Source of the DNA: Acidobacteriota bacterium
GTDB lineage: Bacteria > Acidobacteriota > Terriglobia > Terriglobales > Acidobacteriaceae
NCBI GenBank assembly: GCA_016196065.1
Contig: JACPYL010000027.1
Span: forward strand, 124,001 to 188,000
Direction of reading: 5' to 3'
DNA: 64,000 bases
The notes beneath the pieces were generated by a model. It saw only the letters and a list, made by a program, of their open reading frames with translations, had not been told where the DNA came from and searched no databases. Made by a program: the position numbers and the translations under genes. This document shows positions 5,185 to 61,789 of the stretch, in pieces (the stretch's first letter is position 1; every line of letters starts with the position of its first letter).

Positions 5185-5216
5185 CGTCGTTCGCGGTTCG
5201 TCCTTCGCTATTCGCC
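5185..5216 (+). repeat. Heptad-repeat arm, left side of the four-helix-bundle unit (H1-L)
   Basis: Four consecutive 7-nt units of the form C-G-Y-N-N-T-T (5185-5191, 5192-5198, 5199-5205, 5206-5212) plus a partial fifth. They start two bases after the yqhQ stop. The reverse complement of 5705-5732 is also exactly four such units. Aligned unit by unit, the arms differ at six bases, all at unit positions 3, 4 or 5. Confidence 0.85.
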
Positions 5217-5322
5217 CAATGACTTAGCGTCTCCAACTCGGAACTGATTCATCACAAAATGCGTGGTCAGATGTCGCTGCGGAACATGGCACGGCTCGCT
5301 TACTTTTTGAGCGGAGGCGTAC

Positions 5323-5697
5323 ATGGCGACAAAATGTTCGTATCGAGACCTGCGCATCTGGCAAGAGGCGGTCGAACTAGCGCTAACGATCTACCGTGCT
5401 ACGGCGACGTTCCCCAGGCACGAGCTGTATGGGTTGACTTCTCAAATGCGGCGGGCGGCGGTCTCTGTATCGAGTAACATAGCCGAGGGCAAGGGCTACA
5501 ACTCTGACGGAGATTTCGGACGGTTTCTGTTTCATGCGCGCGGGTCGCTACTGGAGCTTCAGACTCAGATTGTGATCGCGGGCGGTTTAGAATATTTGCA
5601 GAAAGACGACATATCGAAGCTCACATTGGTCACCGACAGGCTGGGCCGCGGCTTGAACGGTTTGATCCAATCGGTTCGAGGAGCAAAAGCGGCTTAG
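5323..5697 (+). CDS. Four-helix-bundle protein (S23 / bAvd-like, TIGR02436 type)
   Basis: A 124-residue all-helical protein. The family signature is clear: Y-R-D-L-x-I-W-Q-E-A near the start, [19 protein letters not shown] at about residues 38-56, then [14 protein letters not shown]. Relatives are encoded in intervening sequences of 23S rRNA genes. The structurally similar Avd protein assists the reverse transcriptase of diversity-generating retroelements by binding RNA. No rRNA or reverse transcriptase is present here. GCGGAGG lies 5 bases before the ATG. The gene interrupts the usual yqhQ-prfA order and sits between two heptad-repeat arms, so I infer it belongs to a mobile or selfish unit. 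Cargo-independent function is unknown. Confidence 0.9.
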
Positions 5698-5704
5698 CCC
5701 TCGG

Positions 5705-5732
5705 AATCGCGAACGACGAAGGACGAAGGACG
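5705..5732 (-). repeat. Heptad-repeat arm, right side of the four-helix-bundle unit (H1-R)
   Basis: Exactly four 7-nt units when read on the minus strand. The arm ends on the base before the prfA start codon, and its aaggacg (5726-5732) is the apparent Shine-Dalgarno region of prfA. The element therefore appears to have supplied the translation signal of an essential gene. Confidence 0.85.
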
Positions 5733-6812
5733 ATGTTTGAACGCTTAGACCAAACCGAGAAGCGGTACGAAGAACTGACGCAGTTACTCTCCTTGCCGGA
5801 GACGATGAATGACTCCGCCAAATTCCAGAAGACTGCCAAGGCGCACAGCGAAGTTGCGCCCATCGTCGAGAAGTATCGCGAGTACAAGGATCTGAAACGC
5901 GGCATCGCTGAAAGCAAGGCCATGCTCGCGGATGAATCCGATGCGGAGATGCGCGCTTACGCTGAAGAGGAACTCGCGAAGCTCGAGCCGCGTGTGAGCG
6001 GTGTTGAAGAGGAACTCAAGGTCCTGCTGCTGCCGAAAGATCCTAACGACGAAAAGAACGTCATCCTCGAAATCCGCGCCGGCACCGGGGGAGACGAATC
6101 GACGCTCTTTGTCGCCGAAGTCTTTCGCATGTATAACCGCTACGCGGAAGCGCAGAAGTGGAAAGTTGAGGTGCTGTCTACGTCGGAATCAGGCGTGGGC
6201 GGCATGAAAGAAGTGATCGCTTTAATCGAGGGCGACCGGGTCTATTCGCGTCTGAAATATGAAAGCGGCGTGCATCGCGTGCAGCGCGTACCCGCCACCG
6301 AGCAGCAGGGACGGGTGCATACTTCCGCGATCACCGTGGCCGTGCTGCCGGAAGCGGAAGATGTCGACGTCAAGATCGAAGCCAAGGATCTTCGTATCGA
6401 CACGTTCTGTTCTTCGGGTCCGGGCGGACAGTCGGTGAACACGACGTATTCGGCCGTGCGCATTACGCATATCCCTACCAATACCGTTGTCAGTTGCCAG
6501 GACGAAAAATCGCAGATCAAGAACCGCGAAAAAGGGATGCGCGTTTTGCGTTCGCGCCTGTATGAAATCGAAATGCAGAAACAGCAGGATGCGCTCGCCA
6601 AGGAACGCAAGCAGATGGTTGGCTCCGGCGATCGCTCCGAGAAAATCCGCACCTATAACTTCCCGCAGAACCGTCTCACCGATCACCGCATCGGGTTCAC
6701 CATCCACCAGCTCGAGCAAGTGATGGACGGCAAGATCCAGCCACTGATCGATGCGCTCATCAGCCACTACCAGGCGGAGAAGATGAAACAGGAATCCGAA
6801 GTCGCCGTATGA
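5733..6812 (+). CDS. prfA: Peptide chain release factor 1
   Basis: A 359-residue cytoplasmic protein that recognises UAA and UAG stop codons and triggers hydrolysis of the peptidyl-tRNA. The stop-codon tripeptide P-A-T (residues 187-189, in R-V-P-A-T-E) marks it as RF1 rather than RF2. The catalytic G-G-Q is at 231-233. PrmC, which methylates this glutamine, is the next gene 16 bases downstream, so the two are probably co-transcribed. The start codon directly abuts a heptad-repeat arm. Confidence 0.97.
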
Positions 6813-6828
6813 GCGTGAGACGTAATTC

Positions 6829-7713
6829 ATGCAGCTCCGCGAATCCCTAACTTCCGCGATCGCCCGCCTGACCGCGGAGCATGTTCCTTCGCCGCGCATG
6901 AATGCCGAGTTGCTCATCATGTTCACGCTCGATTGCGATCGGGCTTATCTCTACGCGCATCCGGAGCGCGAACTAACGGCCAACGAAAGCGAGCGCTACA
7001 ACGAGGCGATTGCCCGCCGCGCCACTGGTGTTCCCGCGCAGTACATCACTGGACATCAGGAATTCTGGGGACTGGATCTGATCGTCTCTCCCGCTGTCTT
7101 GATTCCACGGCCAGAGACGGAGCATGTGGTTGAGACGGTTCTGGAACTGATACGGATGAGGGACGAAGAGACAAAGCAGGATCAACTCCAGGGGGCGGGG
7201 GCGCCCGCTCCACTTTTTCGCGTCGTCGACGTTGGCACTGGCTCCGGAGCCATCGCGCTGGCGCTGGCCAAGGAACTTCCGAACGCCGAAATCCACGCGA
7301 CCGATATTTCTGCGGTGGCGCTCGAGGTAGCGCAGACCAACGCTGCGCGTCACGAGTTCACCTTGCGAACTACTTTCCATCACACGGACCTGTTGAGCGG
7401 ACTGCCCCGTGGAGAATTCGATTTCGTGGTTTCCAATCCGCCCTATGTGGGGGAGTCTGAAGAAGAACAAGTGCAGCTCGAAGTGCGGAAGTTCGAGCCC
7501 CGAAATGCTGTGTTTTCCGGGCGAACGGGTCTGGAAGTCATTGAAAAGCTGATTCCTCAGGCCCGCGAGGCGCTTCGCCCTGGGGGGTGGCTTGTATTCG
7601 AAATCAGCGGCACCATCGTCGAGCGGGTGCGGGCGCTGCTCACTGGTTGGACCGACATCAAAATTACAAATGATCTGCAAGGAATTGCACGTGTGGCAAG
7701 GGCCCGCAGGTAG
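6829..7713 (+). CDS. prmC: Release factor glutamine methyltransferase PrmC/HemK
   Basis: A 294-residue SAM-dependent methyltransferase that modifies the GGQ glutamine of release factors. It shows the N-terminal helical substrate domain with the motif T-G-H-Q-E-F-W-G at about 74-81, I-P-R-P-E-T-E at 92-98, SAM-binding D-V-G-T-G-S-G at 134-140, and catalytic N-P-P-Y at 203-206. Oddly, residues about 108-130 carry an extra segment containing Q-G-A-G-A-P-A-P. It is encoded by a dispersed palindrome (7191-7214) placed just before the SAM-binding strand, and the frame is preserved. Confidence 0.96.
   Translation: MQLRESLTSAIARLTAEHVPSPRMNAELLIMFTLDCDRAYLYAHPERELTANESERYNEAIARRATGVPAQYITGHQEFWGLDLIVSPAVLIPRPETEHVVETVLELIRMRDEETKQDQLQGAGAPAPLFRVVDVGTGSGAIALALAKELPNAEIHATDISAVALEVAQTNAARHEFTLRTTFHHTDLLSGLPRGEFDFVVSNPPYVGESEEEQVQLEVRKFEPRNAVFSGRTGLEVIEKLIPQAREALRPGGWLVFEISGTIVERVRALLTGWTDIKITNDLQGIARVARARR
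7191..7214 (+). repeat. GGGCGCCC palindrome inserted in frame in prmC
   Basis: The core reads gcgggggcgcccgctccac and is translated as A-G-A-P-A-P. It is the same element, orientation and reading frame as the copies in trmFO and moeA. It lies at a domain boundary, where an extra loop would be tolerated. Confidence 0.85.
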
Positions 7714-7782
7714 TTCGGTCTCGCCCGATCTCGCGTGACTCACCCGTCTTTGCCATAGACCAGCGCTCCTGAATTTGCCATA

Positions 7783-8238
7783 ATGCAAAGGCTTCACGAG
7801 GTTAAGCGTTTGAAAAGAATTTTCCCATTTTTCGGAGCGGCGTCCGGTACCCAGCTGGGACCTCTCGAACAACAGCTGCTGGAAGCGCTGTGGATGCGCG
7901 GCAATGCCACGGTCCGCGAACTGCTTGACGATGAAAAAATCACGCAGGCGTACACCACCGTCATGACCACGCTCGACCGCCTGTACAAGAAGAAGTTTCT
8001 CGATCGCGTGTCTGAAGGCCGGGCGTTCCGCTATTCTCCGTGTCAAAGCGCCGATGAACTTCGCCGCGTTGCTGCGGTCGAAGGCATCCGGCAGCTGATC
8101 GGATCTGCCGAAGCGTCTTCGTTGCCGCTTTCCTATCTGGTCGAAGCTCTCAGCACGCATGACGCGCAGTTACTCGATGAACTGCAGATCCTGGTCGAAC
8201 GCAAACGCAAAGAACTGAGGAAAGCGGAGCAGGAATAA
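7783..8238 (+). CDS. BlaI/MecI/CopY family transcriptional repressor
   Basis: A 151-residue winged-helix repressor. The DNA-binding domain covers about residues 24-95 (G-P-L-E-Q-Q-L-L-E-A-L-W ... Y-T-T-V-M-T-T-L-D-R-L-Y-K-K-K-F-L), the standard BlaI recognition-helix region. A C-terminal dimerisation helix follows. Its stop codon overlaps the ATG of the M56 metallopeptidase by one base, the normal arrangement for a repressor cleaved after its membrane protease senses a signal. The 24-residue N-terminal tail is longer than usual, so a slightly later start is possible. The direct repeat ttgccata (7749-7756 and 7774-7781) upstream could be an operator, which is speculative. Confidence 0.92.
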   Translation: MQRLHEVKRLKRIFPFFGAASGTQLGPLEQQLLEALWMRGNATVRELLDDEKITQAYTTVMTTLDRLYKKKFLDRVSEGRAFRYSPCQSADELRRVAAVEGIRQLIGSAEASSLPLSYLVEALSTHDAQLLDELQILVERKRKELRKAEQE

Positions 8239-9176
8239 TGTTCGCTCTTCGCGGCATCGCCGTTTCGCTGACGTTCTTCGTCGTTTTGTACTGCCTGTTG
8301 TCTCTGATCGTGGTTTCTTCGTGGCGCGTTGTAAATCTCTTGCGTGGAATCTCGGCGCATGCCCAAGCGAGCTTGCTGTTCTGGACGCGAGTCTTTCCCT
8401 TGCTGGCCGCTGGTTTGATTACGCTAGTCTTTGCGGTACCTTCCTTCATTATTTTTGAACCCCGCTCGATCGACGAAGACATCGCATTGCCTCTGGTTCT
8501 CGGCCTCGGATGTCTGCTCTTGTTTGCCTTGGGTATATACCGTGTTATCGCGGCACAGCGAAAAGCCACGCATGTGATTGCAGGCTGGCTGAGGGGAGCG
8601 ACCGTGGTTGACGCCGGCGTGAATATGCCCACCTTCTGCACCAGCCGGGGGACACCGCCCCTTACGCTCGTCGGCGTACGCTCACCCCGAGTAGTCGTTT
8701 CGGGGACGACCGTTGCTTTGCTGAGTTCCGACGAGCTACGGGTTGCCGTGCGACACGAAGTCGCGCACATGCGCTCGCGCGATAACCTGAAGAAGCTGGC
8801 CTTTCATTGTTCCCCATTCCCAGGGATGGCCGGCCTGGAAAGTGCATGGCACGAAGCTGCGGAACTGGCCGCGGATGATGGCGCGGTTGCCAGCCTGAGC
8901 GATGCCCTCGACCTGGCCGCCGCTCTGATCAAGCTTTCGCGCCTGCTGCCCGTCGGCAACGCGCCCGCTTTTACGATGACCCTGGTGGGCTCGCCCGGCT
9001 CTGTCACGAGCAGAGTGGAACGTCTTTTGGCCTGGAACCGCTTGCGGCCCCACGCCGTGCAAACGCGCTGGCACTACGCCGCTCCCGTGGCGCTCGCGGC
9101 GATCGTTTGCGCCGCCGCTGTTTATAGTCCTGCGCTCGCCCAGACCCACCGAATTACGGAGTGGCTGGTCCGCTAA
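8238..9176 (+). CDS. M56 (BlaR1-type) membrane metallopeptidase
   Basis: A 312-residue membrane protein with four or so predicted transmembrane segments. The gluzincin motif H-E-V-A-H is near residue 174 (V-R-H-E-V-A-H-M-R-S-R-D-N), and A-E-L-A-A-D-D-G supplies the third zinc ligand region. It lacks the penicillin-binding sensor domain of BlaR1, so the signal it senses is unknown. It is translationally coupled to the BlaI-type repressor and presumably inactivates it. Both may regulate a distant target, or the TonB receptor downstream beyond a palindrome island. Confidence 0.88.
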   Translation: MFALRGIAVSLTFFVVLYCLLSLIVVSSWRVVNLLRGISAHAQASLLFWTRVFPLLAAGLITLVFAVPSFIIFEPRSIDEDIALPLVLGLGCLLLFALGIYRVIAAQRKATHVIAGWLRGATVVDAGVNMPTFCTSRGTPPLTLVGVRSPRVVVSGTTVALLSSDELRVAVRHEVAHMRSRDNLKKLAFHCSPFPGMAGLESAWHEAAELAADDGAVASLSDALDLAAALIKLSRLLPVGNAPAFTMTLVGSPGSVTSRVERLLAWNRLRPHAVQTRWHYAAPVALAAIVCAAAVYSPALAQTHRITEWLVR

Positions 9177-9239
9177 GGCGCGCTTTATTTTCCCGTTAGG
9201 CTTGCTCAAATCTAAGTGGTGCCTCAATTTTCAAGCAGA

Positions 9240-9486
9240 TGTCCCGAAGGGACAATTGAAAGTAACCCGCCAGTTTACTGGCGGGTTGGGGCCATTTCTG
9301 AAGTCAAGTGCCGTGGGCACGACTGAATTTTCACTGGCCGCATCCCCGAGATCAGTCGTCCCTCTCGGGACTTTTTCATCCTTACGCGGGCCTGACCCGG
9401 CGTTGAAACGCCGGGCTATTGTCAGCTGTCCCTCCGGGACGGTTTCAGACTGAGCTCCTGCTCAAAACTACTACTACTGGTAGTAG
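9240..9486. repeat. Palindrome island (REP-like cluster) in the 338-bp gap before the TonB receptor
   Basis: The gap 9177-9514 holds no gene but at least seven short perfect hairpins: TGTCCC/GGGACA (9240-9254), AACCCGCCAG/CTGGCGGGTT (9264-9287), GTGCC/GGCAC (9308-9320), GTCCC/GGGAC followed by TTTTT (9358-9376), CCCGGCG/CGCCGGG (9396-9415), GTCCC/GGGAC (9428-9440) and CTACTAC/GTAGTAG (9468-9486). The GTCCC-TCC-GGGAC and CCCGGCG-TTGAAA-CGCCGGG modules look like REP-type units. The one with a T run could end transcription of the M56 gene. No RAYT transposase is in the window. Confidence 0.8.
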
Positions 9487-9514
9487 AAATGGCTTCCTCT
9501 GTAAGCTGCCACCC

Positions 9515-11638: not shown

Positions 11639-11646
11639 AACACTGC

Positions 11647-11685
11647 TTGCAAAGAGATGCGGCGTGTTGCCGTGTCTCTTTGCAA
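11647..11685. terminator. Probable bidirectional terminator between TonB receptor and purF
   Basis: A perfect 11-bp inverted repeat, TTGCAAAGAGA (11647-11657) and TCTCTTTGCAA (11675-11685), sits between two converging genes. There is no strong T run, so termination is inferred from position. A degenerate CTACG-type palindrome (11704-11731) follows it. Confidence 0.5.
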
Positions 11686-11745
11686 CGCGCATGGGCTTCG
11701 CGAGGGAGACGGGGGCAAGCCCGCCTCTACAGATGATCTTGGTGT

Positions 11746-13191
11746 TTATTCCACTTGAACGGGTTGTATGTCGTCCACATCGACCAGGGTGGTTGGATAT
11801 TTTCCCGTGTAACAGGCGGAGCAGTAGGTAGCTGTCTCGCCCTCACCGCAGGCTTTCTTCAATCCTTCGAGGGATAGATACGCGAGCGAATCCGCGCCGA
11901 TGAATTCGCGAATTTCTTCGATGCTTTTGTTGGCTGCAATCAGATGTTTCTTCGACGGAGTGTCCACTCCATAGAAACATGGCGAGATCGTGGGCGGACA
12001 GGAAATCCGCATGTGGACTTCTTTGGCGCCGGCGTTGCGGATCAAGCGTACGATCTTCCGGCTGGTTGTACCGCGCACCAACGAGTCGTCAATCAGCGCT
12101 ACCCGCTTGCCTTCCAGCAAACTTCGCACCGGATTCAGCTTCAGTTTCACGCCGAAATCGCGGACCGACTGGCTCGGCTCAATGAACGTTCGACCAATGT
12201 AGTGGTTGCGAATCAGGCCCAATCGAAACGGGATGCCGCTCTCGGTGGAGAATCCCAAAGCGGCGGTGTTGCCGGAATCGGGAACCGGCACAACGATGTC
12301 AGCATCTGCCGGAGACTCAATGGCCAGTTGCCGGCCCATCAGGTCGCGGCTCTGGTCGACGGATCTTCCGAAGACGTAACTGTCTGGACGCGAAAAATAT
12401 ACGTGCTCAAAAATGCAGCTCGATTGTGCCGGGGACGGTGAATAGAATCGCGAACTGATTCCCTCGGGCCCGACGATTACGAGTTCTCCGGGCTTCACGT
12501 CGCGCTCGTAATGCGCGCCCAGCAAATCGAATGCGCAGGTTTCTGAAGCGAAGACGACGGTGTCTTTTTTCTCTCCGGTCAGGGCTGGAATCCGCCCCAT
12601 GGCCAGCGGGCGAAAGCCGCGCGGATCACGGGCTGCAAAGATGCGGTCCCGGCTGATCATGACCAGGGAGAATGCGCCCTCGACGCGCCGCAATGCGTCG
12701 GCTATCGCGTCCGGCAGAGTCTGTTCCCGTGAAAGCGCGATCAGGTGAACCAGGACTTCGGTATCGCTGTTGGTCTGGAAAATTGAACCTTGCGCTTCGA
12801 GCTTCGCCCGAATCGCGTGGGCGTTGACCAGGTTGCCGTTGTGGGCAATCGCAATCGCACCCTTGTTCGATTGCACCATGATCGGCTGTGCATTGAGCAA
12901 TGCCGAGTCGCCTGCCGTGGAATAGCGGGTGTGTCCGATGGCAAGAATGCCGCGCAACGAAGCCAGGACATCTTCGGTGAAGATGTCTGCCACCAGTCCC
13001 ATGGACCGATGGACGTGCAGACGCTCGCCGTTCGACGTGACCATGCCGGCTGACTCTTGTCCGCGATGCTGCAGGGCATGCAAGCCGAGGTAAGCGAGCT
13101 TCTCCGCCTCGGGATGCGCATGGATGGCGACGACCCCGCACTCTTCACGAAATTTATCGAAATTCAGCAATTGGCTCTTAGCCTTCAGCAT
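11746..13191 (-). CDS. purF: Amidophosphoribosyltransferase
   Basis: A 481-residue enzyme of purine synthesis that makes phosphoribosylamine from PRPP and glutamine. The N-terminal nucleophile cysteine is C18 (E-E-C-G-V-V-A), exposed after removal of a 17-residue propeptide. Glutaminase motifs H-A-L-Q-H-R-G-Q-E-S-A-G and G-H-T-R-Y-S-T follow. The PRPP-binding loop is V-A-L-I-D-D-S-L-V-R-G-T-T near residue 365. CX-type iron-sulfur ligand cysteines occur in the C-terminal part. The ATG and most of the propeptide lie inside heptad-repeat-like DNA (13173-13197). purL is 18 bases upstream, so purL-purF is an operon. Confidence 0.97.
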   Translation of the reverse strand: MLKAKSQLLNFDKFREECGVVAIHAHPEAEKLAYLGLHALQHRGQESAGMVTSNGERLHVHRSMGLVADIFTEDVLASLRGILAIGHTRYSTAGDSALLNAQPIMVQSNKGAIAIAHNGNLVNAHAIRAKLEAQGSIFQTNSDTEVLVHLIALSREQTLPDAIADALRRVEGAFSLVMISRDRIFAARDPRGFRPLAMGRIPALTGEKKDTVVFASETCAFDLLGAHYERDVKPGELVIVGPEGISSRFYSPSPAQSSCIFEHVYFSRPDSYVFGRSVDQSRDLMGRQLAIESPADADIVVPVPDSGNTAALGFSTESGIPFRLGLIRNHYIGRTFIEPSQSVRDFGVKLKLNPVRSLLEGKRVALIDDSLVRGTTSRKIVRLIRNAGAKEVHMRISCPPTISPCFYGVDTPSKKHLIAANKSIEEIREFIGADSLAYLSLEGLKKACGEGETATYCSACYTGKYPTTLVDVDDIQPVQVE

Positions 13192-13197
13192 TCAGCT
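13173..13197 (+). repeat. Single heptad-repeat arm overlapping the purF start
   Basis: Read on the plus strand, 13173-13197 is three 7-nt units (for example AGCCTTC and AGCATTC) plus AGCT. It matches the AGCT-type units of the hairpins at 17952 and 32782. No matching second arm is seen nearby, so this is a half-element. It overlaps the purF initiation codon and propeptide codons. Confidence 0.6.
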
Positions 13198-13208
13198 AAA
13201 ACAACTTA

Positions 13209-15518
13209 TCAGTCGGCGGCAGCCGTCGCCGGCTCCGCTCGCAGCGCCACTTCCAGCGCGCTTTCGTATCCCTTGCTCAACTCGGTGATGCTGGCGGAGA
13301 TGGCGGGTTTTCCGTCGAGCGCAATTTCGACCCGGTCGCCGCCGGTCTCGCCGAGTACTTCGGCGAACAGATCGTATTCCTGGGCCACTTGTTGGATTCG
13401 GGCCAGCTTCGCCGGGTCGCAAGACAATACGACGCGGCTGGCATCTTCGCCGAACAGCGCAAACTCAGCCGGAAGTTTATGGGATGCCAACTGGACGTTG
13501 AGGCCCACACCTTTCAGCATGGCTGCTTCCGCCAGCGCCACCGTCAGCCCGCCATCGGCGCAGTCATGCGCGGATTCAACCAGCCCATCCTGAATCAGCG
13601 CGACCAGCGCGCGCTGCAGAGTGGCTTCCTTTTCGAGGTCAAGCTCGGGGGGATAGCCCCACACCGCTCCGAGAATTTCTTTCGCGTATTCCGACGAGCC
13701 AAATTCTGATTCCGCGTCCACCGCGTCGCCGAATTCGCTGGCCCGCAACAGCACAATCTTCCGTCCCGGCTGCGAAAAATGCATCTTCGCGGCTTTGTGG
13801 ACGTCCTGGAGAATTCCGACTACTCCCAGAACTGGCGTCGGATAAATCCCCTCGCCTAAAGTCTCGTTGTAGAAGCTGACATTACCGCCCGTGATCGGGA
13901 CTTCGAGTTCTTCGCAAGCCTTCGTGATTCCGTCGATGACTTGTGAGAACTGCCACATGATGTGCGGCTTCTCGGGATTGCCGAAGTTGAGGCAGTTCGT
14001 CGCCGCCACGGGGGTCGCACCTGAGCACGCCACCTTGCGGGACGCTTCCGCCACCGCATGCATCGCGCCGAGTCGCGGGTCGAGATAGCACCAGCGCCCG
14101 TTGCCATCGAGGGCCATGGCCAGGCCGCGGTTGGAACCCTTGATGCGAATTACGCCCGCATCACCAGCGCCGGGCGCATTAACTGTATTGGTTTGTACCA
14201 TGTGGTCATACTGCTGCCACACCCAGCGCTTCGAACAAATATTGGGACTTGCCAGTAGGCGCTTGAAATTCGCAGTGAAGTCGCCGCCCGCAGTGAGTCG
14301 AACCGTGCCCGGCATCTCCCGCTCCACGGGAGGCTCCCACCGCGCCAGCGGGCGCTTGTAGACCGGAGCGTCATCGGTCAACGCTGCGTTCGGAATCTCC
14401 GCGACAACCTGGCCGTGTTCCAATACGCGCATCTTCGCTTCGCGGGTGACGCGGCCGACTTCTACCGCGTCCAGTCCCCATTTTTCGAAGACGCGGAACA
14501 CTTCGTCCTCGCGGCCCTTCTGCGCGACCAGCAACATGCGCTCCTGCGATTCGCTCAGCATGATCTCGTATGGAGTCATGCCCGTCTCGCGCTGCGGAAC
14601 GCGATCCAGTTCGATTTCAACGCCTGTCCCGCCACGCGCGCCCATTTCACAAGTCGAACACGTGAGCCCGGCCGCGCCCATATCCTGAATGCCGACAATG
14701 GCGCCGGTTTGCATCGCTTCAAGGCAGGCCTCAAGTAATAGTTTTTCGAGGAACGGATCGCCCACTTGCACGTTGGGACGTTTCGCCTCGGAACCTTCGC
14801 TGAATTCTTCACTGGCCATGGTCGCGCCGTGGATCCCGTCGCGCCCTGTCTTCGAGCCGATGTAAATCACCGGATTACCTTCGCCGGAAGCGCGCCCGTA
14901 GAAAATTTCGTCGCTCTTCACCAGGCCGAGCGCGAATGCATTCACCAGAGGGTTGCCGTTATAGCAGGGCTCGAATTTCACTTCGCCGCCTAGGTTCGGC
15001 ACGCCGAAGCAATTTCCGTAGGACGCGACACCGCTGACGACGCCTTCCATAACGGAATGATTCTTGTGCAGTTCCGCAGTGGTCGCCGTCTTGCCTGCTT
15101 CAATCGGGCCGAAGCGCAGCGAGTCCATCACCGCCACCGGACGCGCGCCCATCGTGAAAATGTCGCGCAGGATGCCACCTACACCTGTGGCCGCACCCTG
15201 AAAGGGCTCGATGAAGGACGGGTGATTATGCGACTCGATCTTGAAGGCGCAGCCCCAGCCGTCGCCGATATCGATGATGCCGGCGTTCTCTCCCGGACCT
15301 TGCAGCACGAGCTTGCTGCGAGTCGGCAGGCGCTTCAAATGCACGCGGGACGATTTATACGAGCAGTGCTCGCTCCACATCACGCTGAAGATGCCGAGTT
15401 CGGTGCGCGTGGGTTCGCGTCCGCCGAGCAGCTCTTTGATTTTCTCGAATTCGTCCGGAGTCAGGCCGTGTTCCCGTATCATCTCCGGGGTAATAGATGG
15501 GATCGCAGAAGTGGTCAT
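13209..15518 (-). CDS. purL: Phosphoribosylformylglycinamidine synthase subunit PurL
   Basis: A 769-residue small-type PurL that converts FGAR to FGAM with ATP, acting with PurS and PurQ, which are not in this window. It starts with the linker region [10 protein letters not shown] and then [14 protein letters not shown]-site residues follow, including [10 protein letters not shown] and G-V-G-G-I-L-R-D. The duplicated second half carries N-C-L-N-F-G-N-P and [11 protein letters not shown] chose the ATG at 15518 over the adjacent GTG at 15521. It lies 17 bases upstream of purF on the same strand. Confidence 0.97.
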
Positions 15519-15609
15519 CACGGGGAAGTTCTATTGTCGCATTTTCGTCGATTTTGCGCAGAAGGATTCCGCTATAGGGGCGATTCAAAGTTCTTATCGC
15601 CGCGCGAAT

Positions 15610-17951: not shown

Positions 17952-18044
17952 AGCTGCGAGCCCCGAGCTACGAGCCCCGCGCAACCGGATCGCCCGTGGT
18001 TCGAAGATCGTAGCTCGTAGCTCGAGGCTCGAAGCTTCGCAGCT
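17952..18044. repeat. Heptad-repeat hairpin H2 (GT39 gene - selB gap)
   Basis: The left arm (17952-17979) has four units such as AGCTGCG and AGCCCCG. The right arm (18009-18044), read on the other strand, has five units beginning with the same AGCTGCG and including AGCTACG twice. The arms therefore differ by one unit as well as by point changes. The intervening 29 bases share nothing obvious with other loops. Confidence 0.85.
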
Positions 18045-31185: not shown

Positions 31186-31287
31186 CGTCGTTAGTCGTTC
31201 GTCCTTCGTCGTTCGCAATTCGCCGGGCCCAGGTTCAACCGCGCTGCGCGGCTTTTGCGAAGGACCAACGACGAACGGCCAACGACG
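31186..31287. repeat. Heptad-repeat hairpin H3 (rpsR-rplI gap)
   Basis: Two 31-nt arms (31186-31216 and 31257-31287), each four units plus CGC, with a 40-nt loop. Units include CGTCGTT, AGTCGTT, CGTCCTT and GGCCGTT. The arms align without gaps and differ at five bases, at unit positions 1, 3 and 5 only. It occupies nearly the whole gap between two ribosomal protein genes, so it is part of their mRNA. Confidence 0.9.
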
Positions 31288-32768: not shown

Positions 32769-32781
32769 GAAGTCAGCTCTT

Positions 32782-32827
32782 AGCTTCTAGCCGCTGGCTC
32801 CTAGCTAGCAGCTAGAAGCCAGTAGCT
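32782..32827. repeat. Heptad-repeat hairpin H4 (rplY-pth gap)
   Basis: Two 25-nt arms that meet in a shared AGCT (32803-32806), so there is essentially no loop. Units are AGCT-type, for example AGCTTCT, AGCCGCT and GGCTCCT. The arms differ at six bases, all at unit positions 1, 4 or 5. Confidence 0.88.
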
Positions 32828-33592: not shown

Positions 33593-33674
33593 AGTCGTTG
33601 GTTGTTAGTCGTTCGCGACGTTCCATACTGTTGACAGCGTTGCTGTCCCGCGAACGACGAGCGACCAAACGACG
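33593..33674. repeat. Heptad-repeat hairpin H5 (prs-rplY gap)
   Basis: The left arm (33593-33617) has three units (AGTCGTT, GGTTGTT, AGTCGTT) plus CGCG. The right arm (33649-33674), on the other strand, has three units plus CGCG with one single-base insertion. The loop is about 31 nt. Confidence 0.85.
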
Positions 33675-34712: not shown

Positions 34713-34795
34713 CAGTTCTCAGTTCCCGGTTCTCAGTTCTCAGTCTCTGGGCTCCAGTTTCTCTCTGAGAACTGAGAACTGGGAACCGAGAACTG
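34713..34795. repeat. Heptad-repeat hairpin H6 (tRNA-Gln - prs gap)
   Basis: 31-nt arms (34713-34743 and 34765-34795) match at 29 positions. Units are AGTTCTC, AGTTCCC and GGTTCTC. The two mismatches are at unit position 1 of adjacent units. The 21-nt loop is itself made of degenerate units. It fills the gap between the tRNA 3' end and prs, on the same transcript if these are co-transcribed. Confidence 0.92.
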
Positions 34796-34880: not shown

Positions 34881-34965
34881 AGTTTCTAGTTGCTGGTTTC
34901 TAGTTTTGCAGACCGAGCCCGCAACATGCAATTTCGATTTCACTCGCAACTAAAAACTAGAGACT
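34881..34965. repeat. Heptad-repeat hairpin H7 (ispE - tRNA-Gln gap)
   Basis: The left arm (34881-34908) has units AGTTTCT, AGTTGCT and GGTTTCT plus a partial. The right arm (34946-34965), on the other strand, has AGTCTCT, AGTTTTT and AGTTGC, one unit shorter. Its outer end supplies the last codons and stop of ispE. Confidence 0.82.
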
Positions 34966-35989: not shown

Positions 35990-36094
35990 CGCTGTTCGCT
36001 GTTCGTCCTTCGGCGGGAACGCAAGCAACGGGACTTCGAGGCGTTGGACTGGGCACGCTAGAAGCGAACGACGAACGGCGAACAGCGAAGGACG
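35990..36094. repeat. Heptad-repeat hairpin H8 (PEGA gene - ispE gap)
   Basis: The left arm (35990-36010 plus tail) has CGCTGTT twice and CGTCCTT. The right arm (36061-36094), on the other strand, has CGTCCTT, CGCTGTT, CGCCGTT and CGTCGTT plus a partial. The right arm ends on the base before the stop codon complement of the PEGA gene. Confidence 0.85.
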
Positions 36095-43894: not shown

Positions 43895-43969
43895 CGTCGT
43901 TCGTCGTTCGCTATTCGCTCCTGCGGCCCGCTGCGGTTGCGAACAGCGAAGGACGCGCAGCGAACGGCG
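43895..43969. repeat. Heptad-repeat hairpin H9 (anti-sigma - DUF4097 gap)
   Basis: The left arm (43895-43922) has CGTCGTT twice, CGCTATT and CGCTCCT. The right arm (43939-43969), on the other strand, has CGCCGTT, CGCTGCG, CGTCCTT and CGCTGTT plus CGC. The loop is a 16-nt GC palindrome (CTGCGG ... CTGCGG type). Confidence 0.85.
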
Positions 43970-44937: not shown

Positions 44938-45001
44938 AGCTTCGAGCGACGAGCTTCGAGCTTCGAACAACCCACATACCGGTTGCCCGGAGCTCGCAGC
45001 G
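44938..45001. repeat. Heptad-repeat hairpin, partial right arm (sigma - anti-sigma gap)
   Basis: The left arm has four units AGCTTCG, AGCGACG, AGCTTCG, AGCTTCG (44938-44965). The right side keeps only a short matching piece (44989-45001). It lies in the 88-bp gap between the ECF sigma and anti-sigma genes. Confidence 0.6.
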
Positions 45002-46417: not shown

Positions 46418-46502
46418 ATTCGCTGTTCGTCCTTCGCCTTTCGCGATTTGTGCGGTGAGGAACGGCTGAGCTTTCGCGAAGGACGAACGACCAACGACGA
46501 AT
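46418..46502. repeat. Heptad-repeat hairpin H10 (GNAT - queD gap)
   Basis: 29-nt arms (46418-46446 and 46474-46502) align without gaps. There are six mismatches, all at unit positions 1, 3, 4 or 5. Units include CGCTGTT, CGTCCTT and CGTCGTT. The loop is 27 nt. The right arm ends 11 bp before the queD start. Confidence 0.9.
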
Positions 46503-46897: not shown

Positions 46898-46994
46898 AGT
46901 TTCTAGTGTCTGAGTTGCTTGTTTCTTGTCACAGGAGCAACATCCTGTGCTCGGCAGTCGGCGAACGAGAAACCAGAAACTGGCGACAGGAAAC
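46898..46994. repeat. Heptad-repeat hairpin H11 (queD-queE gap)
   Basis: The left arm (46898-46930) has AGTTTCT, AGTGTCT, AGTTGCT and TGTTTCT with a one-base slip. The right arm (46962-46994), on the other strand, has GGTTTCC, TGTCGCC, AGTTTCT and GGTTTCT. It is the third locus of the AGTTTCT flavour after H6 and H7. Confidence 0.78.
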
Positions 46995-49776: not shown

Positions 49777-49798
49777 CATTCACAGGGTTTGCACGAAG

Positions 49799-51108: not shown

Positions 51109-51213
51109 GCGCCGCATCCGATACCTCACAACTGAAGCGGAGCATAGGTCGCGGACCGGGAGGCCTACGGCGCCGATCAGCACTCCCGGTTCGCAAATCT
51201 AGAACGCACCCGG

Positions 51214-53148: not shown

Positions 53149-53260
53149 AACGCACCTCTGCTCCTCATGGTTCTGCAATCCCATCGAATGGGTTGGCAAG
53201 TTTGGATTGATCGGAACGGGCGCAGCGTCGAACTGCGCCCGATTCCCGAGCCACCACGGC

Positions 53261-54088
53261 TTAGATCCCGCGGTATTTGAGAACCACGGTTGCAGTCTTC
53301 CCGGCTCCGATGGTCATTCCGTGATTGAAATAGATGACTCCGTCCGCACCGGACAACAGTCCGGTATAGCCGACATTGATGGAACAACCGGCGCTGGCTA
53401 GTTGGGTGGCGTAGCCAACGTGGTCGAAGGTGTTGGCCGCTGCCAGGGAGAGCTGCAACCCTTTTTGTGCCGAGGCGCTGTAGCCGAAGGCAGAGTTGTA
53501 TGTGCCGTCCAGGATGTTATTGGTTGCATCGTTGGCATCCACGTCGGCAACGCGGGCGAACCAGACCGTTTTGGCGCCGCTCGAGTTGTTCTTCAGCGCC
53601 ATCGTAACCTTCGCACTGGAATCAGTAGCATTCTGCGCAATGGTCTGGGTGAGCGTGAATCTGCCGTCGGTGGTAGTGCGGGCAATCTTCACGGTGGTGG
53701 CGGTCTGACTGAGCTTCGTGGCCGGACCCCAACTCCCGTTGTCCGCGTCGCCGAAGCCGGCGTAATCGTGGTAGCCCACGCCGGAAGAAAAGTCGCAGAC
53801 GGCGTATCCCTCACCGATAATGCCGTGCTTGATGTGCTCGACGCCGGCGGGACTTTGAAACTCGACGATGTTGCCGTTGACGGACACGCAGTATTGCAGG
53901 AATTGTTTGGTCGCGGTGCCGCCCGACGTGAACTGGTAGGTGCAGACGTCGGTCGAATCAGGGCCAAGGGATAAATCGGGATTCTGGCTCGCGGGCGCTG
54001 ATTGAACGGCGACTGGAATGGACTTTTGGCCAAAGGCGGCCACGCACAACACGAGGACGATAGCGAGAGGAATTGTTTTTTTCGACAT
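53261..54088 (-). CDS. Secreted protein of unknown family
   Basis: 275 residues with a signal peptide (ending A-A-F-G-Q) and a long beta-rich mature part (G-G-T-A-T-K-Q-F-L-Q-Y-C-V-S, V-V-L-K-Y-R-G-I at the end). Two or three cysteines could form disulfides. I do not recognise a family. GGAGAAA precedes ATG 54088. It lies between the DNRLRE gene and the arylsulfotransferase gene on the same strand. Confidence 0.7.
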   Translation of the reverse strand: MSKKTIPLAIVLVLCVAAFGQKSIPVAVQSAPASQNPDLSLGPDSTDVCTYQFTSGGTATKQFLQYCVSVNGNIVEFQSPAGVEHIKHGIIGEGYAVCDFSSGVGYHDYAGFGDADNGSWGPATKLSQTATTVKIARTTTDGRFTLTQTIAQNATDSSAKVTMALKNNSSGAKTVWFARVADVDANDATNNILDGTYNSAFGYSASAQKGLQLSLAAANTFDHVGYATQLASAGCSINVGYTGLLSGADGVIYFNHGMTIGAGKTATVVLKYRGI

Positions 54089-54227
54089 GACATTTCTCCA
54101 AAATGGTTGATTGAACTTGCGATTGGTGTCGAATACTTCGACGCTGCCTCGGGCGGCGGGAATCCTTGAATAGACCGCGACTGCCGGACTCACGCCCTCG
54201 AGAATAGTTACCGGATGCTGGGTCGAT

Positions 54228-56030: not shown

Positions 56031-56255
56031 ATCGCACCTCCTGTGCGTTTGTTGGCCGCACTTTCTCGTGCCCGCCGGAAACCTTCAAGGCACAGAGCGT
56101 CGTCCGTGCATGAACCGTGAATAGCCAGCGAGGTTGCAGATATAAAGTGAGTTAGCGGGAGATGTAGCTTGCGGATCAGGGGTCAGAGTATGTGCTGCGT
56201 AGCTCGTAGCCCGCATTTACCGTGCTAAACTGCCTGCTCAAGGAAGGAAGACGCG

Positions 56256-58520: not shown

Positions 58521-58615
58521 AGCGCACTCAAGAGAGCAGGAATTAAAGACGCGCCTTGCCTCGCAGGCGAGAGGGCAAGTTTTCCGCCAGCGGGATTTCT
58601 GGGTATGATCGCTGG

Positions 58616-59881
58616 ATGTGCGCCGCGTCGTCTACTCCCGGAGTAGTCAGCTTCGAAGAAGCCCGTCACATTGTGGAGCGGCACGCCGGAACGGTCTCGC
58701 CGCGTGAGCCTGAGAGCGTAACTCTGCTCGGTGCCTCGGGCCGGATCCTTGCAGAGTCGATCGATGCCGATCGCGATTTTCCTCCATTTGCGCGCGCGGC
58801 TCGCGATGGCTACGCCGTGCGGGCAGCGGATCTGGCTACGACGCCGGCACGACTCGAACTGATTGGCGAGATCAAGGCTGGCGATATCCCAGCGACTTCC
58901 TTCCAGGTGGGTTCCGGGCTGACAGCCTCGATCATGACCGGCGCTCCATTGCCGTCCGGCGCGGATGCGGTGGTGATGGTCGAGTACACGACCCAGACAG
59001 GAAGTACGATTGCAATCAGCCGCGGCGTAAAGACGGGCGAGAATTTCGTTCCCCGAGGATCGGAGGCGCGCCAGGGCCAGAGATTACTGGATCCCGGAAC
59101 TCGCCTTGATCACGCAGCGATTGCATTGCTGGCGTCGGTCGGCAAGAGTGCGGTGCGAGTATTTCGCAAGCCGCGCATCGCAGTACTGGCTACCGGTGAT
59201 GAAATTGTTGCGATCGAAACTACTCCTGGTCCAACGCAGATTCGAAACTCGAATTCTTATTCACTGGCAGCGCAGATACAGAATGCGGGCGGGGAACCAG
59301 TGCTGCTGCCCATCGCGCCGGATGAGCGGGTGCGGTTGCGATCACTAATCGAAGAAGGGTTGGAAGCCGATCTGCTTTTGATGGCAGGCGGAGTTTCGAT
59401 GGGCAAGTACGATCTGGTGGAGCAGGTGCTCGAGGAATTGAAAGCTGAGTTCTACTTCACGGGCGCGCAGATCCAGCCCGGGAAACCTATTGTGTTCGGA
59501 TCCTGCATGCGGCCGACGCGGGCGGGGGCGCCCGCGCCACATAGGCAATATTTTTTCGGGTTGCCGGGGAATCCTGTGTCAACCATGGTGACGTTCGAAC
59601 TCTTCGTGCAGCCGATGATCCAAGCGCTGGCTGGGAGTAAGGCGCAGTCGCTGGTGTTTCTGAAGGCTCGCTTGAAGTCTGATGTGCGCGCGAAGACTGG
59701 GCTGAAGCGCTTTCTTCCAGCGGTGCTTTCGGGGGAATTCGAGAACGCGGAAATTGAGTTGGGGCGCTGGCAAGGATCGGGCGACATCGCGGCTCTGGCG
59801 GCAGCGAATTGCTACTTGGTGATTCCGCCAGATCGCGACTTGATCAGTGCAGGAGAATGGGTACCTCTGCTGATGCGTTGA
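58616..59881 (+). CDS. moeA: Molybdopterin molybdenumtransferase MoeA
   Basis: A 421-residue enzyme inserting molybdate into adenylylated molybdopterin. The order is R-D-G-Y-A-V-R at 63-69, M-T-G-A-P-L-P-S-G-A-D-A-V-V-M-V-E near 107-123, T-G-D-E-I near 193 and G-G-V-S-M-G-K-Y-D near 258-266. The C-terminal F-F-G-L-P-G-N-P-V-S-T is near 313-323. Oddly, residues about 298-311 (R-P-T-R-A-G-A-P-A-P-H-R) are an insertion from a dispersed palindrome at 59518-59543, right before F-F-G-L-P-G-N. moaC and mog follow, so this is a Moco cluster. Confidence 0.96.
   Translation: MCAASSTPGVVSFEEARHIVERHAGTVSPREPESVTLLGASGRILAESIDADRDFPPFARAARDGYAVRAADLATTPARLELIGEIKAGDIPATSFQVGSGLTASIMTGAPLPSGADAVVMVEYTTQTGSTIAISRGVKTGENFVPRGSEARQGQRLLDPGTRLDHAAIALLASVGKSAVRVFRKPRIAVLATGDEIVAIETTPGPTQIRNSNSYSLAAQIQNAGGEPVLLPIAPDERVRLRSLIEEGLEADLLLMAGGVSMGKYDLVEQVLEELKAEFYFTGAQIQPGKPIVFGSCMRPTRAGAPAPHRQYFFGLPGNPVSTMVTFELFVQPMIQALAGSKAQSLVFLKARLKSDVRAKTGLKRFLPAVLSGEFENAEIELGRWQGSGDIAALAAANCYLVIPPDRDLISAGEWVPLLMR
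59518..59543 (+). repeat. GGGCGCCC palindrome inserted in frame in moeA
   Basis: The core gcgggcgggggcgcccgc is followed by gccacat and translated as R-A-G-A-P-A-P-H-R. It has the same frame and orientation as in prmC and trmFO. Confidence 0.88.
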
Positions 59882-59931
59882 CAGGATGAATCGCAGGGTA
59901 AGATTGACGAGGCGCTTGCATGGATCTGTAT

Positions 59932-59956
59932 TGCCGGCGAGTCGCCGGCGCTACGG
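59932..59956. repeat. CTACG-tailed palindrome, copy between moeA and moaC
   Basis: Virtually identical to 1833-1856 (tgccggcga, gtcgccggcg, ctacg). It lies two bases before the moaC start and would be in its leader. Confidence 0.8.
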
Positions 59957-59958
59957 TA

Positions 59959-60450
59959 ATGCCTAAGAAACTCTCACATTACGATTCCAAAGGTCGCGCA
60001 CGAATGGTGGATGTTTCCGCCAAGGCGGCGACCGTGCGGGAAGCGGAGGCGAGCGCGTTTGTCCGGATGAAAGCGGCAGTGTTGCGGGCCTTGCCGTCGA
60101 ATCCCAAGGGCGATCCACTCGAGGTCGCGCGCACGGCCGGGATCATGGCGGCGAAGCGTACCTCCGATCTGATCCCGATGTGTCATCCACTTCCTCTGTC
60201 GTACATTGCTGTGACATTGCGCGTGTGCGAAAATGGCGTGGCTATTACCTCAAAAGTAAAGACCACTGCCGAGACCGGCGTGGAAATGGAAGCACTGGTC
60301 GCGGCAGGAGTCGCGGCGCTGACTGTCTATGACATGTGCAAGGCGCTCGACAAGGGAATTGAAATCCGGGAATTGATGTTGGAAAAGAAATCGGGCGGCA
60401 AGAGCGGCGATTATCGCCGCCCAGGCAAGCCCAACAAGAAGCGCAAGTAG
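59959..60450 (+). CDS. moaC: Cyclic pyranopterin monophosphate synthase
   Basis: A 163-residue enzyme that acts with MoaA in the first step of molybdenum cofactor synthesis. K-R-T-S-D-L-I-P-M-C-H-P-L at 66-78 contains the active-site residues, with T-A-E-T-G-V-E-M-E-A and K-A-L-D-K-G further on. The start is ATG 59959. An earlier in-frame ATG at 59920 would translate the palindrome and is unlikely. The basic Lys/Arg tail is extra. Confidence 0.96.
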   Translation: MPKKLSHYDSKGRARMVDVSAKAATVREAEASAFVRMKAAVLRALPSNPKGDPLEVARTAGIMAAKRTSDLIPMCHPLPLSYIAVTLRVCENGVAITSKVKTTAETGVEMEALVAAGVAALTVYDMCKALDKGIEIRELMLEKKSGGKSGDYRRPGKPNKKRK

Positions 60451-60456
60451 CTTTCT

Positions 60457-61212
60457 ATGCCGAGCAACGTAAAACTCCTGCTGGTGGATGACAACCCGAT
60501 GGTGCTGGGGATGCTGAAGCAGGCTCTGTCTCCGCTGGCGGAAATTTCTACGGCCGGCGATGCCGCGGATGCGTTATTGAAAGCGGTGGATGAAGCGCCC
60601 GACATGGTGATCTGCGACTACCGTATGCCGGGGATGGACGGGCGGCAGTTGCTGGAAAAGTTGAAGAGCCGTCCGGCGACCGCGGGAATCACGGTCATCC
60701 TGATGGCCAGCAAGTCGGACATCAATGAACGGCTATCGGTACACGAGTCAGCCGAAGACTACATTGAAAAGCCGTTTTTCCTGAAGCAGGCGACGCAGCG
60801 CATCAAACGCGTGATCGATCGCATTGCTTTGGAGAAGATGGCGAAAGCGGCGCCTTCCGACGGCATTCTGCGCGGCAGTTTGGCGCAGATGAATGTCGTC
60901 GACCTCGTGCAGTCGCTCGAGATGGGCCGCAAGAGCGGCTCGCTGACCATGACGCGGGCCGATGAAAAATGTGAGATGTTCTTCAGCCAGGGACAAGTGA
61001 AGCACGCCGCCTATGGCTCCATTTCAGGCGATGAGGCGGTCTTCAAAGTTCTCCGCTGGACTGACGGAAGCTTCGAAGTGGATTTCGATGGAAAGACCGC
61101 GAAAGAAAGCACGACCCTCAACACGCAAGGCTTGCTGATGGAAGGCTTGCGCCAGTTGGATGAGGCGCAACGCGATTCTACCGAGGGAGAAGATGTCCTC
61201 CTCGACACCTGA
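60457..61212 (+). CDS. Response regulator with receiver and DUF4388 domains
   Basis: 251 residues. The receiver (1-125) is intact: acidic pair D11-D12, phospho-acceptor D54 (V-I-C-D-Y), S85 and K105. The C-terminal DUF4388/PATAN domain (about 132-235, beginning L-R-G-S-L-A-Q-M-N-V-V-D-L-V-Q-S-L-E) is a protein-protein adaptor seen in gliding and two-component signalling. It sits between moaC and mog and overlaps mog by 20 bases, so it is translated with the Moco genes. The link to cofactor synthesis is unexplained. Confidence 0.9.
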   Translation: MPSNVKLLLVDDNPMVLGMLKQALSPLAEISTAGDAADALLKAVDEAPDMVICDYRMPGMDGRQLLEKLKSRPATAGITVILMASKSDINERLSVHESAEDYIEKPFFLKQATQRIKRVIDRIALEKMAKAAPSDGILRGSLAQMNVVDLVQSLEMGRKSGSLTMTRADEKCEMFFSQGQVKHAAYGSISGDEAVFKVLRWTDGSFEVDFDGKTAKESTTLNTQGLLMEGLRQLDEAQRDSTEGEDVLLDT

Positions 61213-61687
61213 GCGGACTGCGGCCGTGCTCACCGTCAGCGACTCTTGCTCGCGCGGTGAAAAGACAGATCTCTCGGGTCCTGCGGTTGCGCAGGCACTC
61301 GAGAACCGAAAATTTCGAGTGGTCGTGCGCAGCGTCGTTCCCGACGAGACTGCTGCAATCCAGGAAAAGTTGATCGAACTCTGCCGTTCCGCGCGGCTGG
61401 TCGTGACCACGGGTGGGACCGGTGTTGCGCTGCGCGATGTCACTCCTGAAGCTACGCGCGCGGTTTGCGATCGTCTGGTGGAAGGCATCGCCGAGCAGAT
61501 GCGTGCGGAAGGATTGAAAAAGACGCGGTTCGCGAGCCTGAGTCGCTCGGTGTGCGGAACGCGCGGCACAAGTCTGATTTTGAATTTGCCGGGTAGTCCC
61601 GCGGGCGCGGTGGAAGCGCTCGCTGCCGTGATCGAAGTGCTGCCGCATGCACTCGACTTGCTGGAAGGGAAGACGGAGCACGGGTAG
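61193..61687 (+). CDS. Molybdopterin adenylyltransferase (Mog/MoaB family)
   Basis: 164 residues of the MoaB/Mog fold that activate molybdopterin with ATP. V-S-D-S-C-S-R-G-E-K-T-D-L-S-G at about 17-31 and T-T-G-G-T-G at 78-83 with D-V-T-P-E-A-T are diagnostic. N-L-P-G-S-P-A-G-A near residue 140 matches the MPT-binding site. Mog and MoaB cannot be told apart by eye here. The start at 61193 overlaps the response regulator by 20 bases. Confidence 0.9.
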   Translation: MSSSTPERTAAVLTVSDSCSRGEKTDLSGPAVAQALENRKFRVVVRSVVPDETAAIQEKLIELCRSARLVVTTGGTGVALRDVTPEATRAVCDRLVEGIAEQMRAEGLKKTRFASLSRSVCGTRGTSLILNLPGSPAGAVEALAAVIEVLPHALDLLEGKTEHG

Positions 61688-61692
61688 GGAAT

Positions 61693-61789
61693 TGTCGTTA
61701 GTCGGTGGTCGTTTGCAAAATTCATTCCTTGCCGAGACTGCCAGGACTTCCGGCATAGCGAACGACTAGCGACCATCGACCAACGACTG
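61693..61789. repeat. Heptad-repeat hairpin H12 (mog - VTT gap)
   Basis: The left arm (61693-61716) has three units (TGTCGTT, AGTCGGT, GGTCGTT). The right arm (61758-61789), on the other strand, has four (AGTCGTT, GGTCGAT, GGTCGCT, AGTCGTT) plus CGC. The arms differ by one unit in number. The loop is 41 nt. Confidence 0.82.

Follow-up and report, generated by a model that had tools for sequence, protein, structure and literature searches.

A 64,000 nt stretch of an Acidobacteriota genome (assembly GCA_016196065.1, contig JACPYL010000027.1, positions 124,001 to 188,000; hereafter the window) carries a series of intergenic hairpins with arms of tandem 7 nt units (heptads). These are probably the arms of a family of minimal elements, termed here IVP elements after the '23S rRNA intervening sequence protein' (IVP) gene found in one of them. 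A complete element would consist of a left array of about 3–6 heptads, a loop with one IVP/S23p four-helix-bundle gene, and an inverted array of the same kind; the commoner short hairpins would be IVP-less members, made up of arms and a non-coding loop. Each IVP lineage would have its own version of the heptad (its flavour) on the skeleton aGtnnyy, the short hairpins tending to the flavours of the IVPs resident in their genome.

Heptad hairpins and the complete element

The window hairpins sit between protein or tRNA genes, and no rRNA match was found in the window. The initial annotation had listed twelve arm pairs and two partial hairpins; the arms were inspected at all of these positions, and tandem 7 nt units are present in every pair and in both partials (Table 1). 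A gap-by-gap inverted-repeat search, covering 372 of the 384 gaps of at least 35 nt, returned ten of the twelve as the top inverted repeat of their own gap, with a score of at least 24. The hairpin at 34881–34965, which shares a gap with the stronger 34713–34795, was not returned as best, and 46898–46994 was not returned as the best of its gap at that score.

Inverted pairings in the window number 18, and the arms of 11 of them show a period of 7 (these 11 represent registers of six distinct hairpins), compared with 0, 0, 0, 0, 0, 0, 1, 1, 2 and 0 in ten dinucleotide shuffles of the same sequence; the comparison with shuffled DNA that had been proposed as a check therefore did not give equal frequencies. 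Arrays in the window number 11 at a lag of 7 and two at a lag of 12, with none at lags 4–6, 8–11 and 13. Over 464 kb (the window and 20 spread stretches) there are 49 lag-7 arrays, 39 of them intergenic; intergenic arrays number 0–3 at lags 4–6, 8–13 and 15, and 26 at lag 14, a multiple of 7. Across the whole genome, patterns of three units match 161 times for GTCGTT and 160 times for AGTTCTC, overlapping registers included.

The hairpin at 5185–5732 had been annotated correctly, but the gene in its 490 nt loop was overlooked. It encodes an IVP, matching PF05635 (E = 4.6e-34) and TIGR02436 (four helix bundle protein; E = 1.5e-32). The AlphaFold model has four helices (pLDDT 94.3), and its top Foldseek match is 2gsc, with E values down to 7.8e-8; 2rld is matched with E values down to 3.9e-4, and both structures have five chains. 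Avd structures are matched at weaker E values (8ub7, TM 0.80, E = 8.6e-3; 4dwl, TM 0.75, E = 0.04), and the match to the bAvd family lies under the family cut-off (19.3 of 40 bits). By analogy with 2gsc and 2rld, its nearest solved relatives, the window IVP would also be a pentamer.

IVP genes lie between inverted arrays in many phyla

IVP genes are associated with inverted heptad arrays in the genome of the window, in its relatives and across phyla. The genome itself has eight PF05635 matches, read as seven genes (one is broken into two matches). All seven are flanked by inverted arrays, six heptad and one octad, and the flavours are all different (AGGTGTC, AGTTCTC, AGTGGTT, AGTTTCT, CGTCGTT, AGCTACT and the octad GTAATTTT). 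PF05635 matches occur in 33 of 41 genomes, comprising this one, its congeners, and relatives at the order and class level. From these 41 genomes 77 loci were examined, of which 66 were placed by profile and 65 scored (L119, with a short flank, was left out). An inverted repeat with a score of at least 27 is present at 63 of the 65, and at 59 it is heptad, a count that includes the loci of the window's own genome with the broken gene counting twice; among relatives only, 52 of 58 scored loci have heptad arms. Eleven loci of a divergent subfamily, one of them in the window's genome, were placed by coordinates and counted apart; all have inverted repeats, eight heptad and three octad. Among 74 control genes of similar size in the same genome, none has a heptad inverted repeat and one has any such repeat.

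A scan of named genomes found at least 571 relatives, of which the best 80 were taken for scoring. Heptad arms are present at 36 of 43 loci from Acidobacteriota (L209, from Terriglobia, counted here) and at 31 of 37 from other phyla. According to record titles, the 31 with heptad arms comprise Planctomycetota (14), Delta-, Beta- and unplaced Proteobacteria (7) and Chloroflexi (2), and one each from Chlorobiota, Synergistota, Ozemobacter, Verrucomicrobiota, Cyanobacteria, Omnitrophota, Hydrogenedentota and Bacteroidota, so that among these best 80 IVP elements recur in about a dozen phylum-level groups. Ten of the named genomes were searched whole, and 24 of 28 scored loci are heptad and one octad; about ten of these loci repeat the named-genome set, and L379 and L385, below the family cut-off, were left out. 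Control open reading frames (ORFs) in the named loci scored heptad in 5 of 75 cases. In two of these (L217, L268) the IVP gene had itself been taken as the control in error, and the others (L226, L245, L270) have arm pairs of opposite polarity, taken as parts of neighbouring elements.

Plasmid loci, drawn from 25 records, are heptad in 13 of 14 cases and octad in one (13 cyanobacterial and one from Azospirillum, two of them being one identical block). Some of these elements part genes of one function, namely two ribonucleotide reductase subunits, cas6 and cas4, or cas10 and a Cmr3-family gene. Two Calothrix brevissima plasmids carry identical IVP genes (L350, L351), but the identity spans a longer block and is therefore no evidence of element movement.

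At L282 the IVP gene lies between very long AGTTCTC arrays; each arm has about 22 units, which may reflect a recent expansion. An unpaired array with an 8 nt period (ACTGAAAT/ACTGATGT) is found just upstream of prs at L045 (about 1435–1476). The genome, that of an order-level relative, also contains an IVP gene with octad arms (L155).

Unit anatomy and polarity

The anatomy of the repeats was derived from 124 heptad elements, leaving out loci with a best period other than 7, L096 (the same gene as L095) and nine named loci taken as repeats of loci from the relatives' genomes. Their profile is A (0.76), G (0.95), T (0.59), n, n, T/C (0.77), C/T (0.87), close to the pattern V-G-Y-N-N-Y-T/C/G given in the initial annotation. 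The 124 elements have 78 different consensus units on one skeleton, aGtnnyy, with a total information of 4.14 bits compared with at most 2.24 in position-shuffled units. The G at position 2 is changed in 0 of 56 phylogenetically independent pairs, and the other positions in 12–30%. Arms have a median length of 31 nt or 4.4 heptads (10th to 90th percentile, 3.3–6.1 heptads). Perfect upkeep of arm pairing was considered and rejected, as several arms show uncompensated mismatches across species.

The first arm follows the common direction in 118 of the 124 elements (leave-one-out test), and three of the six exceptions carry the near-palindromic unit AGCTACT; a cruder measure, the AG-versus-CT count, gives 94 for, 22 against and 8 ties. 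The pyrimidine-rich arm had been said always to come first. The shared polarity is borne out but the pyrimidine richness is not, the AGGTCAG and AAGGCAA flavours being purine-rich. Similarly, the flavours had been taken as one family; they do form one structural class with a common frame and near-constant polarity, but are separate families, each with its own IVP gene.

Flavour follows the IVP gene and matches in trans

Flavour is tied to the IVP gene. Across 57 elements, the more distant two IVPs are, the more their flavours tend to differ (Mantel rho 0.24; 0 of 2000 permutations), mean flavour distance being 0.12 at protein distances below 15% (11 pairs) and 0.42–0.53, the level of unrelated pairs, above 30%. 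By itself this correlation could be linkage, and short hairpins elsewhere in the genome were therefore tested. These match in trans: of 41 short heptad hairpins in three genomes, each of another genus (674, 420 and 411 kb), 30 are nearest to the flavour of an IVP resident in their own genome, compared with 15.9 when labels are shuffled, and none of 10,000 label shuffles reaches 30. Within the 674 kb from the window's own genome, 26 of 36 flavour-sorted heptad hairpins (the complete element of the window included) share a resident-IVP flavour.

Only one of the 24 genomes of the genus, congener G022 (95% complete), has no PF05635 match. Array patterns of two flavours, GTCGTT and AGTTCTC, match 1 and 0 times in G022, and 26–292 and 45–247 times in the other 23 genomes. 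Over 41 genomes, IVP matches per Mb correlate with array matches per Mb (Spearman 0.79; 0.69 within the genus; values uncorrected for kinship). Seven order-level relatives have neither an IVP match nor arrays of the two tested flavours. Six relatives with IVP matches also lack arrays of these two flavours, as expected if flavours differ between genomes.

Turnover of sites

Hairpins are gained, lost and changed at given sites. When orthologous gaps of congeners were compared (classified by eye), both filled and empty hairpin sites were seen. Among 21 species of the genus (the window's own included), 12 have a heptad hairpin between prs and rplY, and the remaining nine have a short gap or other sequence there; the rpsR-rplI gap has, depending on the species, heptads of two flavours, hairpins of 9 nt units, or neither. 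The comparison with sister genomes proposed in the initial annotation thus gives no perfect conservation between species. In the gap that holds the window's complete element, 22 congener loci comprise nine complete-length elements (some with broken genes), five IVP-less AGTTCTC hairpins, seven loci without heptads, and L301, in which both arms are kept and only the 3′ part of the IVP gene is left. L301 is an intermediate between a complete element and a short hairpin.

Among 57 pairs of IVPs less than 30% apart, 33 share flanking sequence, i.e., occupy the same site, and 24 are at unrelated sites. The proteins of the latter are 70–91% identical, and therefore represent related, not fresh, copies; their mean flavour distance is 0.24 (13 pairs below 0.25), compared with 0.45 for all pairs.

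Features of the window

The hairpins of the window are collected in Table 1. Outside them, an Acido-Lenti-1 RNA (RF01687) was found at 9396–9441, at the 5′ end of a 739 aa ORF, in keeping with an acidobacterial genome. ARAGORN called a tRNA-Ser at 14283–14354, inside a 770 aa ORF (13209–15521); there is no Rfam match at the gathering score, and this is probably a false call.

Table 1. Heptad hairpins and the complete IVP element of the window
Feature	Coordinates	Strand	Remarks
Left heptad arm, CGTCGTT flavour, complete IVP element	5185..5213	+	1 nt past upstream gene's stop codon
IVP gene (four-helix-bundle / S23p family), 124 aa, in loop	5323..5697	+	PF05635, TIGR02436, AlphaFold, Foldseek
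Right heptad arm of complete IVP element	5704..5732	+	Last base directly precedes next start codon
Partial, degenerate array, short gap	13173..13197	.	
IVP-less hairpin, AGCTTCG flavour	17952..18044	.	Congener locus L112 has an IVP gene with such arms
IVP-less hairpin, CGTCGTT flavour	31186..31287	.	Between S18 and L9 ribosomal protein genes
IVP-less hairpin, AGCTTCT flavour	32775..32827	.	Between L25 and peptidyl-tRNA hydrolase genes
IVP-less hairpin, CGTCGTT flavour	33593..33674	.	Between prs (ribose-phosphate pyrophosphokinase) and rplY (L25)
IVP-less hairpin, AGTTCTC flavour	34713..34795	.	Between tRNA-Gln and prs; some congeners with other flavours
Weaker IVP-less hairpin, AGTTTCT flavour	34881..34965	.	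Between GHMP kinase gene and tRNA-Gln
IVP-less hairpin, CGTCGTT flavour	35990..36094	.	
IVP-less hairpin, CGTCGTT flavour	43895..43969	.	
Partial hairpin, AGCTTCG flavour	44938..45001	.	Left array full, right arm short
IVP-less hairpin, CGTCGTT flavour	46418..46502	.	
Degenerate hairpin, AGTTTCT flavour	46898..46994	.	
IVP-less hairpin, GTCGTT flavour	61693..61789	.	

Relation to known repeats and proteins

The hairpins had been held to match no named repeat class. Exclusion of a miniature inverted-repeat transposable element (MITE) with fixed ends stands, the interiors being unshared in five of six flavours, but named relatives do exist. In one 23S rRNA intervening sequence, the S23p gene is directly preceded by three heptameric repeats in tandem, and the terminal stem is 28 bp long; this intervening sequence is excised by RNase III, with the RNase III site at the start of the first repeat (passages of PMC4990558). 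These repeats, stem and RNase III site fit heptad arms. A PF05635 gene in a hairpin loop and terminal inverted repeats are common to both kinds of element, the 28 bp stem corresponding to four heptads. The window elements differ in being intergenic and not in rRNA, and in having many IVP-less copies and several flavours side by side; the complete element has the ORF of an intervening sequence and the short hairpins have none. Xanthomonas S23p is described in that paper as a homopentameric torus of four-helix bundles. Proteins of the IVP/S23p family are given as of unknown function in passages of PMC4990558 and PMC11270868, the latter reporting IVP genes of uncharacterised function within 16S and 23S insertions of bacteria of the candidate phyla radiation (CPR).

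The short tandemly repeated repetitive sequences (STRRs) of filamentous cyanobacteria are also tandem 7 bp units that are intergenic and form hairpins, and their function is given as unknown (passages of PMC2670836). STRRs are cyanobacterial, whereas the window hairpins belong to Acidobacteriota, and the passages of that paper on STRRs are silent on an IVP gene. In the plasmid set described above, 12 of 13 cyanobacterial IVP loci have heptad arms, and the other octad arms. An STRR reportedly also occurs in cyanobacterial RNase P RNA. The TAACTGA heptamers of Beggiatoaceae are direct repeats, and the passages describing them mention no IVP (PMC4679880).

PF05635 has been noted as Avd-like (passages of PMC10053308). 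The predicted fold of the window IVP is the same four-helix bundle as that of Avd, a protein of diversity-generating retroelements (DGRs), but there is no reverse transcriptase beside the IVP gene, and the single RVT_1 match of the genome is on contig C29. The repetitive extragenic palindromic (REP) sequences and REPINs are tagged palindromes associated with RAYT transposases. They too are short, intergenic, palindromic and present in many copies, but REPs have one tagged palindrome where the heptad hairpins have tandem 7 nt units.

Genes of another protein family, GxxExxY (PF13366), are flanked by inverted repeats in 26 of 29 scored cases (L325, with a short flank, was not counted), 17 of them with a best period of 8–10 and an autocorrelation of at least 0.45. 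Both the protein family and the unit length differ from those of IVP elements, and these genes with their 8–10 nt hairpins are perhaps a parallel system. Units of 8–10 nt at GxxExxY loci (L127, L319–L347) include CACAGAGA and CACGGAGA, and gene-less hairpins with similar units are found at L073, L075, L058:16982–17083 and L017:18762–18858; some congeners also have them between rpsR and rplI. The kinds of gap that hold heptad hairpins also hold REP-like palindromes (GTAGAGACGCGGC... and relatives; L291, L292, L303, L305, L307, L308, L310; L010:4443–4526), which in other species stand as separate features in the gap of the window's complete element, and a further intergenic palindrome family, TTGTCATCCTGAGCGAAGCGAAGGACCTG, is found at L011:12239–12326, L062:18048–18126 and L060:5258–5352.

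Discussion

The mechanism suggested by these relationships is that a pentameric IVP ring, a structural relative of Avd, binds tandem heptads as RNA or as a single strand, and that binding would cause the ring's own element to spread or be maintained, with the same effect in trans on IVP-less hairpins of that flavour. Each subunit may bind one heptad, a guess from the five subunits and the 3.3–6.1 heptads per arm; arrays with far more units also exist (L282).

A number of observations weigh against IVP elements as proposed. Heptad arms above the threshold are absent at 6 of the 65 scored loci: four (L115, L116, L125, L142) belong to a neighbouring family of the same order whose IVP genes have no detectable tandem arms, L109 scores too low, and L155 has octad arms and so falls outside the heptad count. 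They are also absent at 6 of the 37 loci from other phyla among the best 80 of at least 571, and at 3 of the 28 from whole-genome searches besides the octad one, the IVP genes of L383 and L384 having no detectable tandem arms. In the trans test, 11 of the 41 short hairpins are closest to a flavour other than that of any resident IVP; these include AGGTCAG-family hairpins of the window's genome, whose unit series, including ATTGCAG, recurs around IVP L163 of congener G008. For 10 of the 36 hairpins of the window's genome (AGCTTCG and AGGTCAG flavours), no IVP gene of the same flavour was found in that genome, and congeners G001 and G014 are rich in AGTTCTC and GTCGTT arrays with no matching IVP found, although drafts may miss copies. 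Since 33 of the 57 close IVP pairs are at the same site, inheritance among them is mostly vertical. A mutual-information scan of IVP residues against unit letters gave a z of 9.35 compared with a permutation maximum of 7.92, but this signal was lost in 56 phylogenetically independent pairs (maximum z 2.69, permutation median 2.88), so that no residue could be tied to unit letters once relatedness is controlled, coevolution of residue and unit is not claimed, and the uncontrolled signal is likely to be kinship. We know of no nuclease or polymerase in IVPs.

The loops likewise speak against simple transposition. For five of the six flavours, copies within a genome have loops that are no more similar than shuffled sequence, unlike the copies of an ordinary transposon; the exception is a single AGTTCTC pair with somewhat similar loops. 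When one orthologous hairpin is compared in 11 species, its loops are 72% alike. Hence the statement that loops share nothing is correct for most copies of this genome, but not for orthologous loops or the AGTTCTC pair. Same-flavour copies are either old, with only their arms held in common, or their arms have spread without the loop. Derivation of short hairpins from complete elements, as judged by shared loops, is unsupported within the genome, L301 being the one truncated intermediate. A switch of flavour by gene conversion in the tRNA-Gln/prs gap is unlikely because, by eye, the loop differs when the flavour differs.

The most serious alternative, which we nonetheless regard as unlikely, is a regulon without any mobile element, in which the IVP is an RNA-binding regulator, the hairpins of each flavour between cistrons are its binding sites for processing, stability or coupling, and the arms around its own gene are autoregulatory. 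In 29 gaps between co-directional genes the hairpins begin a median of 7 nt past the stop codon, a series of ribosomal protein, tRNA and prs genes read in one direction holds several of them, the flavour match in trans (30 of 41 against 15.9) would be expected, and the IVP fold is that of Avd in the DGR ribonucleoprotein (8ub7). Effects on transcript stability or coupling have also been suggested for the cyanobacterial STRR hairpins (passages of PMC2670836). However, the presence of a hairpin at a given gap varies within the genus (12 of 21 species) and at one gap the flavour is swapped, related IVP elements occupy unrelated sites, and co-directional gaps are not significantly enriched (16 of 22 against 164 of 246, p = 0.64; for all stretches, 29 of 36 against 254 of 372, p = 0.13).

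Pure mutation, by slipped-strand expansion of 7 nt units and template switching between arms with the IVP genes as passengers, would account for the likeness of units within an element, for long arrays such as L282, and for copies with similar arms and mostly dissimilar loops. Slippage predicts no tie to one gene family, yet heptad arms are present at 59 of 65 IVP loci and at none of 74 control genes, and it predicts neither a skeleton with a near-invariant G across phyla nor a match to resident IVP flavours, both of which are seen; it is very improbable. Least probable of all is that the hairpins are common terminators, attenuators or RNase III sites that have no protein of their own: the inverted repeats do adjoin stop codons, and RNase III cuts out the related 23S intervening sequence (passages of PMC4990558), but a common 7 nt period with flavours, changes of presence and flavour at orthologous gaps, and the near absence of two flavours from the IVP-less G022 are not what such signals would show.

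IVP elements thus remain the favoured explanation. A bolder version, to which we give less than even credence, is that IVP rings are a sequence-reading family, the pentamer reading tandem heptads one per subunit by a diversifying code. Such rings would mobilise a pan-bacterial class of hairpins that includes 23S intervening sequences and STRRs and is parasitised by many IVP-less hairpins, and the GxxExxY system of 8–10 nt units would be convergent.

The element class unifies known kinds and is not without relatives; a literature search, mostly outside subscription journals, found no statement joining heptad repeats to an IVP gene in general. If IVP elements are real, two old orphan observations, the cyanobacterial heptamers and the 23S intervening sequences with S23p genes, would be one element class, which would also account for a large set of acidobacterial hairpins. 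Their own heptad would offer IVP/S23p proteins a ligand that is concrete and open to testing, and the repeats would gain a candidate partner acting in trans.

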